A stretch of DNA of 64,000 nt from Faecalibacterium duncaniae. Lineage in GTDB: Bacteria > Bacillota > Clostridia > Oscillospirales > Ruminococcaceae. The stretch is taken from NCBI RefSeq assembly GCF_010509575.1, contig NZ_CP048437.1:124001-188000 (forward strand). The letters run 5' to 3'. A model generated the notes under the pieces. That model worked only from the letters and a program-made list of their open reading frames with translations. It made no database searches and was not told where the DNA came from. The translations under genes and the position numbers were made by a program. Positions 42,064 to 52,806 of the stretch are shown piece after piece. Position 1 is the first letter of the stretch, and every line of letters starts with the position of its first letter.

Positions 42064-42736
42064 ATTCCAGTTCTTTGTCCTTTGAAATGGTTACTTTGTA
42101 ATTCACATACTTACCGCCCGTATCAGCTAAAAGCACCGTTCCGTCATAGGTTTTGCCCGTTTTTACGGAATACAGCTTTTTGACTTTTGCCTTGCCGGAT
42201 TTCAAGAGTGCAGCGGCAATCTTCGGGGTAAAGACAGTTTTTCGTTCTTCAAAGAAGCGGTCATTTTTCCACATGGTAAAGCTGCACTCTTTGTTGGAAC
42301 AGTAGTAGTTTTTCTTCCCCTCATAGACCGGGGATTTACAGCGGGGGCATTTTCCAAGCTCTGTTTTCTCTGTCTTGAAAAGCTCCTGTTTCTCGCCTAA
42401 CACGGAAGCATAGGTTTTTACAAGCTCCTGTGCCATTGCTTCAATTCCCTGCATGAAAGCGGCAGGGTCGGCGTTGCCCTTTGCAATCTGCGTCAGATTG
42501 TTTTCCCATGCAGCCGTAAGCTGCGGAGAAGTTAAGCTGTCCGGCAGGACGCAGACAAGGCTTGTGCCGTCTTTGGTGGGAAGTAGCTGCTTGCCCTTGC
42601 GCTCCACAAAGCCGCCTTTCACTAACTTTTCAATGACAGCGGCGCGGGTGGCAGGCGTACCAAGCCCCCGGCGTTCTGCGTCCGGGTCGGTGTCCTCATT
42701 TCCGGCGCGTTCCATAGCAGAAAGTAAGGACGCTTC
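42062..42736 (-). pseudogene. topB: topB 3' fragment, cut off by the nested element
   Basis: C-terminal 224 codons of a topoisomerase III. SLLSAMERAGNED...GLGTPATRAAVIEKLVKGGFVERK is the conserved late region of TopB. It is followed by a zinc-ribbon CPRCKSPVYEGKKNYYCSNKEC and a repeat domain. The frame is open to the GAAG junction at 42733-42736 but has no start of its own; ATG 42715 is internal. It joins in frame to 51381-52806 when the nested element is removed. Confidence 0.9.
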
Positions 42737-42758
42737 TGATACGTTTTGTCAAGGGTGT

Positions 42759-42959
42759 TTAAGAACTTTTTTCGCTGTCATTCAAAATCAGACGCTTGAT
42801 TTTGTCGCTCATGGTTTCTTTGCTCGTTTCACTGAAATGGATTTTGACGCGGTAGGTGGTCTTTCCGATTTTCTTTATCATTACAGGTGGCGCGGCTTCC
42901 TTTACGGTCAGAGGGGAAGCGGTTGCGGGGGTGCTGCGGTTGCTGGTGTCGTTGTTCAT
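42759..42959 (-). CDS. tnpW: TnpW-like transposon protein
   Basis: 66-aa protein. The C-terminal KKIGKTTYRVKIHFSETSKETMSDKIKRLIL matches the TnpW family of Tn4451-type elements; the Ser/Thr/Pro-rich N-terminus is variable. Function unknown; usually at the end opposite the recombinase, as here. ATG 42959 with AAAGGAG. Confidence 0.75.
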   Translation of the reverse strand: MNNDTSNRSTPATASPLTVKEAAPPVMIKKIGKTTYRVKIHFSETSKETMSDKIKRLILNDSEKSS

Positions 42960-43073
42960 AGGCTCTCCTTTCCATGAGAAAAGCCCCATGCGGTCATACA
43001 TGGGGCGGTGGTTTTGAGGTTGAAGTGGCGAAGTGGCAAGGTATCTGGGTTTTGCCACTTGGATTTTGCCGTT

Positions 43074-49131: not shown

Positions 49132-49458
49132 TCAAGCATAGATTAGCTCATATTTTACGATTTCTTCTGCCTGTGCCTTGCAAGCGTTCATCAGCCCTAC
49201 CCACTTCATAGGCGCGGCGGCTTTCAATTCCTCGGTGGCTCCCGCGCTCTTGGCAAGCTCCGGCATGATAAGGTCAATCAGGCTCCGCGCGGCTGCGTCA
49301 ATCTCCGCACAATGCTCATACAGTTTTTCACTGGCAACAAGGGCGGTGTAGAGATCGGGGCGGTAGCCCTCAAGATAGGCTTTCCGCAAGTGTCCATAAT
49401 GCCCGATATAGGGCGGTCTGGCGGGTAAAGTAGTACCGTTGTCAATCAATCTTCTCAT
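49132..49458 (-). CDS. tnpV: TnpV-like transposon protein
   Basis: 108-aa protein matching TnpV of Tn4451-type elements: [36 protein letters not shown] and the C-terminal [24 protein letters not shown]. Role unclear, possibly recombination directionality. Translationally coupled to the recombinase (ATGA). Confidence 0.78.
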
Positions 49459-51326
49459 GCGCTCTTTTCTCCTTTCTCGTCTGCGACAGGGGGAAGTTTA
49501 TGGGGCTTTTGCTCCTGCTCCCGTTCCCGCTGTTCTCTCCATTGTCTGCGTTTTTTCTCCATATAGCGGCGGTTGTATTCGGCTTTTTTTGCTCTGCGCC
49601 GTTCCTGCTCTGCCAATGCCGCTTTTTCTTCCTCTGTCAGTACGATTTCCTCATGGGGGATTTCTACCTTGCCGACAAAGTTAAAGAAAATCTCAACCTC
49701 CTGTGTGCGGCTCGCCCCTTTTCCCTCGGCTTGGTGGACAAGGATTTTTTCAACAAATTCATTTATCATGGCGGGGGTAAGCTCGGAAAAATCCGTATAT
49801 TTTTTGACAAGGGCAAGGAATTTTTCAGCGTTGACGGTTTCCCGGCTTATACGGTCAAGCTCCTGCTCGTCTTGGGTAACGCTCTCGGTTAAACTCTCTA
49901 ACTCCGCTTCAAAATCATGCAGCATTTGTTCAAAGAGCTTATCAGAAAGTCTGCCGTTTACATTGTCCTCATAGAGCTTGCGGATTAAGCGGCTCAATTC
50001 GTCGGCTCGTTTCTCGCTGCGCTGTTTTCTCTGCCGGATTGCCTTTGCCGCTTTCACCTGCCGCTCGCTGGAAGCAGAGCAGACCTGCTCCATAAATGCC
50101 GCTTCATTGTTCAGCGCGTAGTCGCATACTTCCTTGATAGCTTCAAGCAGAAGCTCATTTACAACGGCTGTGCGGATAAGGTGCGTCGTGCAGTATCTAT
50201 TATAGTGCTGGTTGCCTAAATCATAACGAGAACAGTTGTACTCGTCGCGTTCTGGACGCTTCCTGCCGTTGGGTCGCCCCGCCCAGTCCCGCGCCAGTCC
50301 AGCCCCGCCCCTGTGGTTATACATCTTAGCCCCGCAATCCGCGCAAAACATCAAGCCCGTTAAAGGATTTGCCGCGCCTATGGTGTCCGTCCGGCGTATC
50401 GTTTTCCGCAAGCTCTGGACGCGCTCCCATGTTTCCTTGTCAATAATAGCTTCCTGCGTATTTTTAAAAATGACTAAATCCTCTTTGGGTGTCATTCTGG
50501 AGCGTTTGTCTTTGTAGCTTTCTTTATAGGTGCGGAAGTTTACTGTATGCCCCATATACTCCGGCTTGGATAGAATATCGGCAACTGTGCCGCCACGCCA
50601 TGTGTACCGTTCAGCGGGGTTAAAATTAGACTGATGTTTCCCCACGCCGCGCTGTGCAAGATAATAGGACGGTCTTTCAACCTTTTCCAAAGCAAGGATA
50701 CGGGCAATTTCATACGGGCCTTTGCTCTCCAACGCCATGCGGTAAATCCGGCGTACTACCTCGGCGGCTTCCTCGTCGATAATCCAGTGGTCTTTGTCAT
50801 TAGGGTCTTTCTTATAGCCATAAATACAATGGCTGTTTGTATGCTTGCCGGACATTCCTCTTGCGTGGAGAACGCTTGTTATTTTTCGGCTGCTATCACG
50901 CACATACCATTCGTTCATAATATTCAAAAACGGGGCAAACTCGCTGCTTTCGCGCTTGTCGCTGTCAACTCCGTTTGCTATGGCAATAAAACGGACGCCC
51001 CGCTCCTTGAACATGACTTCTGTGTAAAATCCCACTTGCAGATAATCTCTGCCGACACGACTTAAATCCTTTACCAGTACATAGCCGATTTCGCCGCTTT
51101 CAATTCCCGCAATCATGCGTTTCCAGTTCGGACGCTCGAAGTTTGCCCCAGACCAGCCGTCATCGGTAAAGTGGACGCAATTCGTAAAGCCATGTTCCCT
51201 TGCATAATCTTCAAGCAGTTTCTTTTGATTGATTATGCTGTTGCTGTCGCCTGTGAGGTCGTCGTCGCGGGAAAGACGCTCGTATAGTGCGGTTATCTTG
51301 CCGTTGTCCGTTTTCTTTGCTTTCAT
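49455..51326 (-). CDS. tnpX: large serine recombinase (TnpX/TndX family)
   Basis: 623-aa site-specific recombinase that excises and integrates the nested element. The N-terminal resolvase domain has catalytic Ser19 (YERLSRDD) and the usual Arg-rich [19 protein letters not shown] segment. A Recombinase domain (about 170-270) and a zinc-ribbon domain ([13 protein letters not shown]) follow, then a coiled coil (about 390-470) and a Lys/Arg-rich tail. This is the TnpX/TndX layout. Clear AAAGGAG ribosome site; 55 bp from the element end. Confidence 0.94.
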
Positions 51327-51342
51327 TGAAAAACTCTCCTTT

Positions 51343-52806
51343 CTATGGGCGATTTCTTATCCCCCTTTCATAGCATATAACTTCATTGTGGGGCTTCGGC
51401 GGCGTCGTTTCATGCTCCGTAACCTTTGCAGCAGGGTTTTCAAAGGTCTGTCCCTCGGTAAAGTCCGGCACATCTAAAACAAGTTCGTTTTCGTCGTCGC
51501 TGTCCGGCTTCTTTTTGAGGGTAGCCCGGTAAAGCCGTTCAATGTTTTTCCACCCGGCAGCGATTACCGTCTTGCCCCTTGCCGTAAATTCATGGTCGGC
51601 GCAGGAGAAAACCGCCGTTACCGCTTCGTAAACGTGCGGCTCTGCGGTCGCCATAAGCAGACGCGCCCCGGTAAGGATAAGGATATTTCTTTCACTTTCC
51701 GGCAGCGTAGTAAGGTCAGTTTTTGCAATTTCCATAGTGGGGATAATGGCGTGGTGGTCTGATACTTTTTTGCTGTTCAGAACGCGGGAAATACTCTGTT
51801 CATAGGCTGCGCTCGCCATAAAGGGCAGCTTGCCGCAAAGCAGCGATACGATACTCGCCGCTGTGTCGCCCATGTCGTCGGTCAGATAGTTGCTGTCCGT
51901 TCTCGGATAAGTAAGCAGCTTCTTTTCATAAAGTGTCTGTGCAAGGTCAAAGGTCTGCTTTGCCGTGTACCCGTAGATACGGTTTGCTTCCCTTTGCAGA
52001 GAGGTAAGGTCAAAGAGCTTCGGCGGTATAGCGGTTTTATTTTCACGGGTCAAGGAAGTGCAGACAGCCGCCGACGCTTCGCAGGCCGCTTTCAGTTTGC
52101 CCGCTTCATCAGCGGCGCAGATCTTCGCGCTTGCCGCTTCTGCGCCGGGGAGCATAAGGCGCACATGGTAATATTTTTCTTTCTTGAAGTTCATAATGGC
52201 AGCGTCCCGGTCTACAAGCATTTTTAGGGTTGGGGTCTGAACGCGCCCCACGTTCAAGGTTTTTCCATACAGGCAGGAGAAAAGGCGGGTCGCGTTAATG
52301 CCGATAAGCCAGTCAGCCTTTGCCCTGCATAGTGCGGAATGATAGAGAGCGTCATACCTGCGCCCGTCCTTCAGATTGTCAAAGCCGCTTTTGATGGCGT
52401 CCGTTTCCATAGAGGAAATCCAAAGACGGGTAAAGGGCTTCTTGCAGCCCGCTTGATGATAGACAAAGCGGAAAATCAATTCTCCCTCGCGTCCTGCGTC
52501 GCAGGCGTTCACGACTTCCGAAACGTCGCTGCGCTGCATGAGGTCTTTTAAGATTTTGAATTGCTTTCCCTTGTCGGCAGCTACGGTGTACTGCCATTCC
52601 TGCGGCAGAATGGGTAAGCTGTCATAGCTCCATTTCCTGTACTGTTCCCCATAGGCGGCAGCTTCCGCAAGTCCTACCAAATGCCCGATACACCAAGAGA
52701 TAACATAACCGTTCCCCTCGATATATCCGTCTTTCTTCTCCCTTACGCCAAGGGCGGCGGCAACCGCCGCCCCGACGCTGGGTTTCTCACAAATCACAAG
52801 TTTCAT
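51343..52806 (-). pseudogene. topB: topB 5' fragment with a 12-residue element-encoded tail
   Basis: N-terminal 475 codons of a type IA topoisomerase III. The Toprim domain has LVICEKPSVG and CDAGREGE, and the catalytic Tyr is in LLTYPRTDSNYL. The true sequence stops at ...[19 protein letters not shown] and the stop come from the nested element. The catalytic core is complete, but the C-terminal region and zinc ribbon are missing, so the enzyme may be weak or inactive while the element is inserted. Coupled to the DUF4366 gene by an ATGA overlap. Confidence 0.9.

Follow-up and report, generated by a model that had tools for sequence, protein, structure and literature searches.

A TnpX-type mobilisable element and its relatives recurrently interrupt one codon of the topoisomerase gene topB of conjugative elements

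In a 64,000-nucleotide stretch of Faecalibacterium duncaniae DNA (contig NZ_CP048437.1, positions 124,001 to 188,000; here called the window, whose own coordinates are used below), the topoisomerase III gene topB of a CD1110-type integrative and conjugative element (ICE) is broken into two parts, which raises the question of what interrupts this gene and whether the place of the interruption is accidental. The interruption is an element of 8,648 bp (42735–51382, reverse strand; one GA core counted in its size), delimited by its junction sequences and by comparison with intact topB. A first-pass annotation of the same DNA had proposed that a complete TnpX-type mobilisable element splits the gene, and profile matches, gene content and junctions bear this out; what it missed is that insertion into topB is recurrent and site-specific. 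We consider it very likely that the element is an integrative and mobilizable element (IME) of a group whose TnpX-type recombinases integrate site-specifically in the Glu codon of a TE[A/D]xLLSAME motif in the topB genes of conjugative elements, and that a recombinase promoter which is split in the integrated form would be rebuilt in the circle as part of the same cycle.

The 5′ part of topB (51383–52806, reverse strand) ends with the GA of the interrupted Glu codon, and the 3′ part (42062–42734, reverse strand) follows the right-hand GA core; both were recognized by matches to topoisomerase III and Pfam models (Toprim and Topoisom_bac for the 5′ part). On the topoisomerase III model of 669 positions, the N part (51343–52806) covers positions 1–483 and the C part (42062–42715) positions 508–645, and by coordinate arithmetic on the separate, unjoined halves, the 1424 and 673 bp of the two parts amount to 699 codons with the stop. 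One GA core stands at the tnpX end (attL, 51383–51384, reverse strand) and one at the far end (attR, 42735–42736, reverse strand). The first-pass annotation had placed the exchange at a GA dinucleotide, which we found at both joins here and in 15/15 elements of the group whose two ends lie in the fetched DNA. It had also pointed to a shared GAAG, and this tetranucleotide is present on the coding strand at both window joins (51381–51384 and 42733–42736), but the core that is constant across relatives is GA only: the joins of two of them (loci L075 and L010) read GATG on the left and GAGG on the right.

The sequence predicted for the uninterrupted gene had been set beforehand as the refuting test. 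The nearest unbroken topB of the same genome (L002; 75% identity over the 5′ part, 81% over the 3′ part) reads HNEASLLSAMERAG / PHNEASLLSAMERAG / TTPPKPHNEASLLSAMERAG across the site, exactly as predicted, and topB resumes at the same codon in all 15 two-ended elements. Base by base, the window and L002 agree at 74 of 92 positions up to the left GA and at 10 of 40 after it; on the right, they agree at 11 of 40 before the GA and at 254 of 300 from the GA on. Since the agreement changes sharply at both GA dinucleotides, the junctions are more than chance. Similarly, the interrupted topB of genome G010 (L049) shares 95% protein identity with the unbroken L005 of the window genome (at 2995849), and their bases agree at 87/92 positions up to the GA and 9/40 after it, while L047 and the unbroken L003 agree at 82/92 and 12/40, respectively. 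At the right end, the ungapped agreement of L047 and L003 is low (117/300) because the lengths differ; over the first 45 bases, 44 are identical, as counted by eye.

In the window genome (3.10 Mb, a single contig), ICE-type topB occurs at seven loci, of which five are unbroken and two are split. A census of 31 genomes of the genus, counted from a listing in which at least 45% identity to L002 defined the ICE type, gave 49 unbroken ICE-type topB genes, four with internal stops, and seven genes broken at the TE-motif site, five with the 5′ part (one a partial match) and two with the 3′ part only. More distant type IA topoisomerases (28–31% identity), occurring singly and presumably chromosomal, number 29 in the same genomes, and none of them is broken at the TE-motif site. 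Other fragments, that is Toprim-site breaks, frameshifts and contig ends, were left out of this count.

The closest relatives of the window TnpX likewise lie in topB. Relatives of the recombinase were gathered from genome contigs (the best 80 of 368 candidates), from 199 related genomes and from viral contigs; distant members are under-sampled because of this choice and because at most six candidates were scored per genome. After removal by hand of 21 repeated places and of six further rows (L109, L124, L134 and L147, in-frame stop; L022 and L064, short), 103 recombinases remained, and merging of seven identical rows left 96 distinct rows for a tree, built like the second tree mentioned below with a quick method. 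The window falls in a branch of 26 rows with a support of 99 in the Shimodaira–Hasegawa-like approximate likelihood ratio test (SH-aLRT), corresponding to 27 loci with the merged L114. At 22 of these 27 loci, the topB 5′ part stops at the same codon, about 38–57 bp before tnpX. At two others (L071 and L092), topB was seen only as its 3′ part, at the far end, and two (L076 and L095, the latter relabelled as such) are without flank. The topB label, carried by 23 rows, changes 7 times on the 96-row tree, compared with a mean of 20.8 for shuffled labels, and 0 of 500 shuffles were as low. It includes L082 and L085, which belong to a neighbouring recombinase group, the label of L085 resting on 19 flank bases. 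In this neighbouring group (L082, L080, L085, L091), tnpX is separated from the left end by tnpW and about 0.9 kb, an arrangement that resembles a permuted gene order. The hosts of the window's group belong to Oscillospiraceae, Lachnospiraceae, Butyricicoccaceae and Anaerovoracaceae, and one lineage also occurs on an IncC plasmid of Enterobacterales. ICE genes upstream of topB (CD1107-like, CD1108 or VirB4) were found at 14 of the 18 group loci tested. In plasmid and phage collections, 26 records matched, with recombinases of at most 60.4% identity to that of the window; the insertion site was read in one of them (H1).

The 15 two-ended elements, of 8,007–10,270 bp with join anchors picked by eye, sit in topB genes whose relatedness does not follow that of the recombinases. 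TnpX and topB identities are uncorrelated, with a Mantel Spearman value of 0.03 (permutation p 0.39) for the topB 5′ part and of −0.04 (p 0.58) for the 3′ part. Between the two topB parts, in contrast, identities are correlated (Mantel 0.57), so that nearly all 15 represent separate insertions. For example, the window and L047 share 98% of TnpX and 59% and 70% of the two topB parts; on the DNA level, the elements are 94–95% identical in two long blocks and the flanks 66–72%. Likewise, TnpX is 99% identical and topB 51% between L078 and L079, and 98% and 49%, respectively, between L073 and L074. The finding of 94–95% identical elements in unrelated topB genes shows that the family moves. A separate observation concerns the few bases directly following the GA on the tnpX side, which differ despite TnpX identities of 96–98% (L081/L083 against L084; the window against L047); this might reflect exchange near the core.

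The two ends of the element each carry one half of a promoter. A −10-like TATGCT lies at the tnpX end (51372–51377, reverse strand; from the end sequence and promoter scoring) and a −35-like TTGACA at the far end (42747–42752, reverse strand). When the ends are joined in silico, the spacer is exactly 17 bp, in the same register, in 15/15 elements; the far end reads TTGACA in 12 and a one-mismatch form in 3, and the tnpX end offers a −10-like hexamer with 1–2 mismatches. Compared with shuffled sequences, the joined promoter reaches p values of 0–0.024 in 12 elements and 0.055–0.064 in 3, these being 15 cases from related elements and not 15 independent trials. In contrast, the best pair at the integrated attL has 4–6 mismatches (p 0.35–0.995). 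At attR, a 2-mismatch pair directed into the topB 3′ part was seen in 3/15 elements (L078, L081, L083). Judged from these motifs, the circle joint would form the tnpX promoter, as reported for Tn4451.

The gene content is that of a mobilisable passenger, with a serine integrase and a MobA/L (MobQ) relaxase but without genes for a type IV secretion system (T4SS). All genes lie on the reverse strand, and from the 5′ side of topB the order begins with tnpX (49455–51326), encoding a large serine recombinase of 623 aa with the Pfam domains Resolvase, Recombinase, Zn_ribbon_recom and DUF4368, and tnpV (49132–49458; PF14198, E 3.7e-28). An open reading frame (ORF) of 104 aa without assigned function (48646–48960), present in 7/15 two-ended elements including the window, is followed by a gene for a sigma factor of the extracytoplasmic function type (48001–48561; TIGR02937 above cutoff) and, overlapping it by 4 bp, by an ORF of 305 aa (47087–48004) without a Pfam match above cutoff, whose location would suit an anti-sigma factor. 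Then come the genes for a DUF3847 protein (46692–47069; PF12958), the MobQ relaxase (44968–46665; NF041496 above cutoff, PF03389 with E 2.2e-95) and a primase-helicase-like protein with Toprim, AAA_25 and DUF3991 domains assigned by Pfam (43074–44951), and finally tnpW (42759–43058; PF14202, E 9.3e-19). MobQ is present in 14/15 two-ended elements. No aminoglycoside or other resistance family was found among the eight ORFs of the window element that were scanned. Upstream of topB, the transfer genes of the host ICE extend over 52803–63352 (reverse strand) and comprise CD1107-like, CD1108 family, methylase-like, VirB4 (CD1110), TrbL-like and VirD4 (CD1115) genes.

A second recombinase family breaks topB at another motif. 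In the Faecalibacterium genomes of the 31-genome census, other topB genes are broken near residue 115, at the Toprim motif DAGREGE. In the five two-ended cases (L151–L155), the insert measures about 10.9–11.7 kb and encodes MobQ and a recombinase; the latter here lies at the far end, adjoining the topB 3′ part, and has the same Pfam domains as the window TnpX at 34% identity. The joins have GATGCAGG in common, with one differing base in two right ends. Comparison of L151 with the unbroken L006 gave 98/104 and then 11/40 agreeing bases at one end, and 15/40 and then 286/300 at the other. Eight right ends of this family adjoin topB, two of them known from the last 22 recombinase residues only (the genomes include G022, G025 and G030). 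The recombinase occurs in nine copies in 7/199 genomes: six abut topB, those of G006 and G016 lie elsewhere, and the remaining one is at the end of a contig. No report of this family or of the split promoter of the window's group was found in the literature searched, most subscription papers being outside its coverage.

Taken together, these data fit the following cycle. TnpX would recombine the GA of the circle with the GA of topB, splitting the gene and placing tnpX about 55 bp past the join in the same direction as topB. Integration would part the −35 at the far end from the −10 at the tnpX end, and as the integrated tnpX stands in line with topB and lacks a −35, it would be transcribed from the ICE operon; its expression would thus depend on read-through of the transfer operon in the integrated state and on its own promoter in the circle. 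Switching on the ICE operon would lead to TnpX synthesis, excision of the element and restoration of topB. The MobQ relaxase may then send the excised circle through the T4SS of the ICE, and the circle promoter would provide TnpX for re-entry into any suitable topB. A more far-reaching version pictures a promoter-less passenger wired to the ICE transfer operon, with excision and return of topB tied to ICE activation, and two recombinase families, about one-third identical, docking at the Toprim and TE[A/D]xLLSAME motifs; we regard this version as tentative.

Several observations weigh against such a cycle or its generality. L086 belongs to the TnpX group and sits outside topB, as does L109, the flanks of which resemble the topB site around GA (by eye). 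L010, one of the 15 two-ended elements, is without a recognisable relaxase. No ICE gene was detected at L072, L081 and L084, three of the 18 loci examined in this respect, and a fourth (L075) gave matches to VirD4 and LPD only. A promoter within the topB 5′ part might also read the integrated tnpX. The first-pass annotation had suggested a check for the circular form; in sequence data, neither the viral contigs nor 31 genomes of the genus contained a match to a degenerate pattern for the window-type circle joint, a weak result given that assemblies seldom contain circle joints and that other group members have different ends. Furthermore, in a smaller tree which includes a plasmid-borne IME (H1), 22/26 rows and this IME form one branch (SH-aLRT 99), and L078, L079, L089 and L090 are placed with other recombinases; as the two trees differ in this placement, the topB habit need not go back to one origin.

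The consequences for the host ICE bear on two further explanations. TYPR, the motif of the catalytic tyrosine, falls within the 5′ part of topB and the remaining core within the 3′ part. In the underlying alignment to PDB chain 11yy_A (DNA topoisomerase 3), the insertion site corresponds to residue 493. From this division, the split TopB product should be inactive. TraE, the RP4 homologue of topB, is dispensable. The first-pass annotation had assumed a conflict in which the guest disables a maintenance enzyme of the very ICE on which its transfer relies; a loss of TopB activity is likely, but the in-vitro transfer of a Tn5252-type ICE with such a guest in its topoisomerase gene, reported in PMC13214566, weighs against the conflict and means that the gene is not needed or that the guest leaves first. 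The same transfer would fit a site-specific IME that is dead or frozen in the window, with topB lost permanently and its loss tolerated, either through dispensability of the gene or through supply from other ICEs. The five unbroken ICE-type topB genes of this genome, the lack of a circle joint in the 31 genus genomes and the rearranged or one-sided copies L071, L156 and L157 point in this direction as well; in these three, the topB 3′ part stands at the right end and the other end is lost or lies past the fetched DNA. However, tnpX, the relaxase and both ends are intact in the window, and near-identical elements occupy unrelated topB genes, so that a frozen element is possible but not what we would expect. 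Conversely, the guest could act as a regulated switch which holds topB off and returns the gene upon ICE induction, to the benefit of the ICE. The clean restoration at the codon, the constant orientation and the integrated tnpX without its own −35 would suit a switch, as would the proposal of Coluzzi et al. (main text of PMC5357655) that IMEs in traG and related genes excise upon induction of conjugation. A benefit of this kind is nevertheless doubtful, as both excision and the need of the ICE for topB enter it as suppositions.

Two remaining explanations are highly improbable. A low-specificity mobilisable transposon of the Tn4451 kind with a single chance landing in topB would account for TnpX, TnpV, TnpW and the GA, which the element has in common with Tn4451, a transposon listed in a review with “numerous sites (GA)” as target (PMC5704250, in part), and for the positions of L086, L109 and the neighbouring-group members L080 and L091, the latter two in an apparent surface-protein gene and another recombinase gene (by eye); but the same codon is hit at 22/27 group loci in unrelated topB genes, and we rejected this explanation because the 22 sites would have to stem from one insertion, against the TnpX/topB incongruence. 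A single ancient insertion that co-diverged with the ICE could explain why most of the group shares the topB site and why L083 and L084, as the only pair, have near-identical topB genes (98%), but was rejected on the same incongruence; the close similarity of the intact L005 to the interrupted L049 also speaks against it.

For one lineage, a topoisomerase gene has been published before as an IME target. HLGR_IME of Streptococcus dysgalactiae, a class 5 IME (serine integrase, MobA/L relaxase), lies in the topoisomerase gene of a Tn5252-type ICE; according to the relevant passages of PMC13214566 (2026), the target is named topA, the “DNA III topoisomerase” of ICEs, and is called a preferred site, the repeats ACTGA/ACAGA end in GA, and the similar Tn7470 occurs in H. 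influenzae. These passages also name the plasmid records CP070578 and CP070545, our plasmid hits H2 and H3. H1 (L176; IncC plasmid NZ_CP085731.1, IME at 10466–19156) carries the same kind of element, with a recombinase 99% identical to that of L116, of the same lineage as L115–L117 and within the 22-row branch of the smaller tree. The topB-like gene of this plasmid, with 33–35% identity to L006, has its break at the same place, aligning up to residue 503 and from residue 497 of L006 when the halves are compared separately. HLGR_IME and the window element thus share the serine integrase, MobQ, the place in the topoisomerase gene of a conjugative element and the recombinase group. In contrast to the window element, HLGR_IME carries aminoglycoside resistance cargo, its recombinase is 55.5% identical to that of the window, and its reported hosts are pathogens, with Tn5252-type or other ICEs and IncC plasmids; in the HLGR_IME passages of PMC13214566, the analysis does not extend to the codon, to the group as a whole or to the promoter. 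Apparently new are the exact codon, how broad the group is, the topB incongruence, the split promoter and the Toprim-motif family.

Other known elements are alike in part. Prophages of the comK type are serine-recombinase elements that split a gene and restore it exactly upon regulated excision; they interrupt a gene of the cell, whereas the window element interrupts a gene of another mobile element. This analogy has been drawn for IMEs in the main text of PMC5357655. Tn4451 and Tn4453 have the same TnpX domains (Resolvase, Recombinase, Zn ribbon, DUF4368), TnpV, TnpW and GA at both ends, and the tnpX promoter of Tn4451 is formed at the circle joint according to the title of Lyras and Rood 2000, as cited in PMC13023037 and PMC9765467. 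However, they have a MobV-type TnpZ relaxase and use many GA sites, in contrast to MobQ (PF03389) and one topB codon here. Tn6104 is a TnpX element nested in the Clostridioides difficile conjugative transposon Tn6103, with a 2-bp repeat and a detected circle; unlike the element described here, Tn6104–6106 lie in ORFs 1743 and 1776, and the word “topoisomerase” is absent from the main text of PMC3158075. Streptococcal IMEs with a serine integrase and MobQ likewise disrupt conserved ICE genes site-specifically, 12 of 16 serine-integrase IMEs lying in traG, maff2 or snf2 of ICEs (Coluzzi et al. 2017, PMC5357655). Their targets in the main texts of PMC5357655 and PMC7168690 are traG, maff2 and snf2 of Tn5252-superfamily ICEs, PPI and COG4646, in contrast to topB of a CD1110-type ICE, and “topoisomerase” does not occur in these main texts.

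Besides the element itself, several neighbouring features were observed. The window genome holds a second, distant topB-site element in another ICE (L010, 2819–12605; C1:2150413-2162234), with TnpX identities of 53–54% and a VapE-like gene, and 29 matches to the window recombinase in 3.1 Mb indicate many large serine recombinases. Cargo of other topB-site elements includes a streptomycin adenylyltransferase-like gene (L117, 15922–16815), an SdpI-like gene with an ABC transporter ATPase (L089, 12260–13951) and a LytTR two-component system (L079, 12871–14923). The host ICE carries genes for a sensor kinase, a response regulator and an ABC transporter at 29764–33200 of the window, which together resemble lantibiotic-protection systems (subfamily matches below curated cut-offs). 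Beside topB (38146–41859), a protein of 1,237 aa fuses LPD, ArdA, ArdC-N, YodL and metallopeptidase-like domains and is likely an anti-restriction polyprotein.

Altogether, the TE-motif group and the Toprim-motif family show that IMEs have repeatedly docked in topoisomerase genes of conjugative elements. A conserved protein motif would serve as a DNA address on the guest's own vehicle, making a chromosomal site unnecessary. The resistance element HLGR_IME is thereby placed in a much wider, mostly commensal group, and because no promoter is recognisable at the join next to the integrated tnpX, the excision of nested IMEs upon ICE induction can now be tested.

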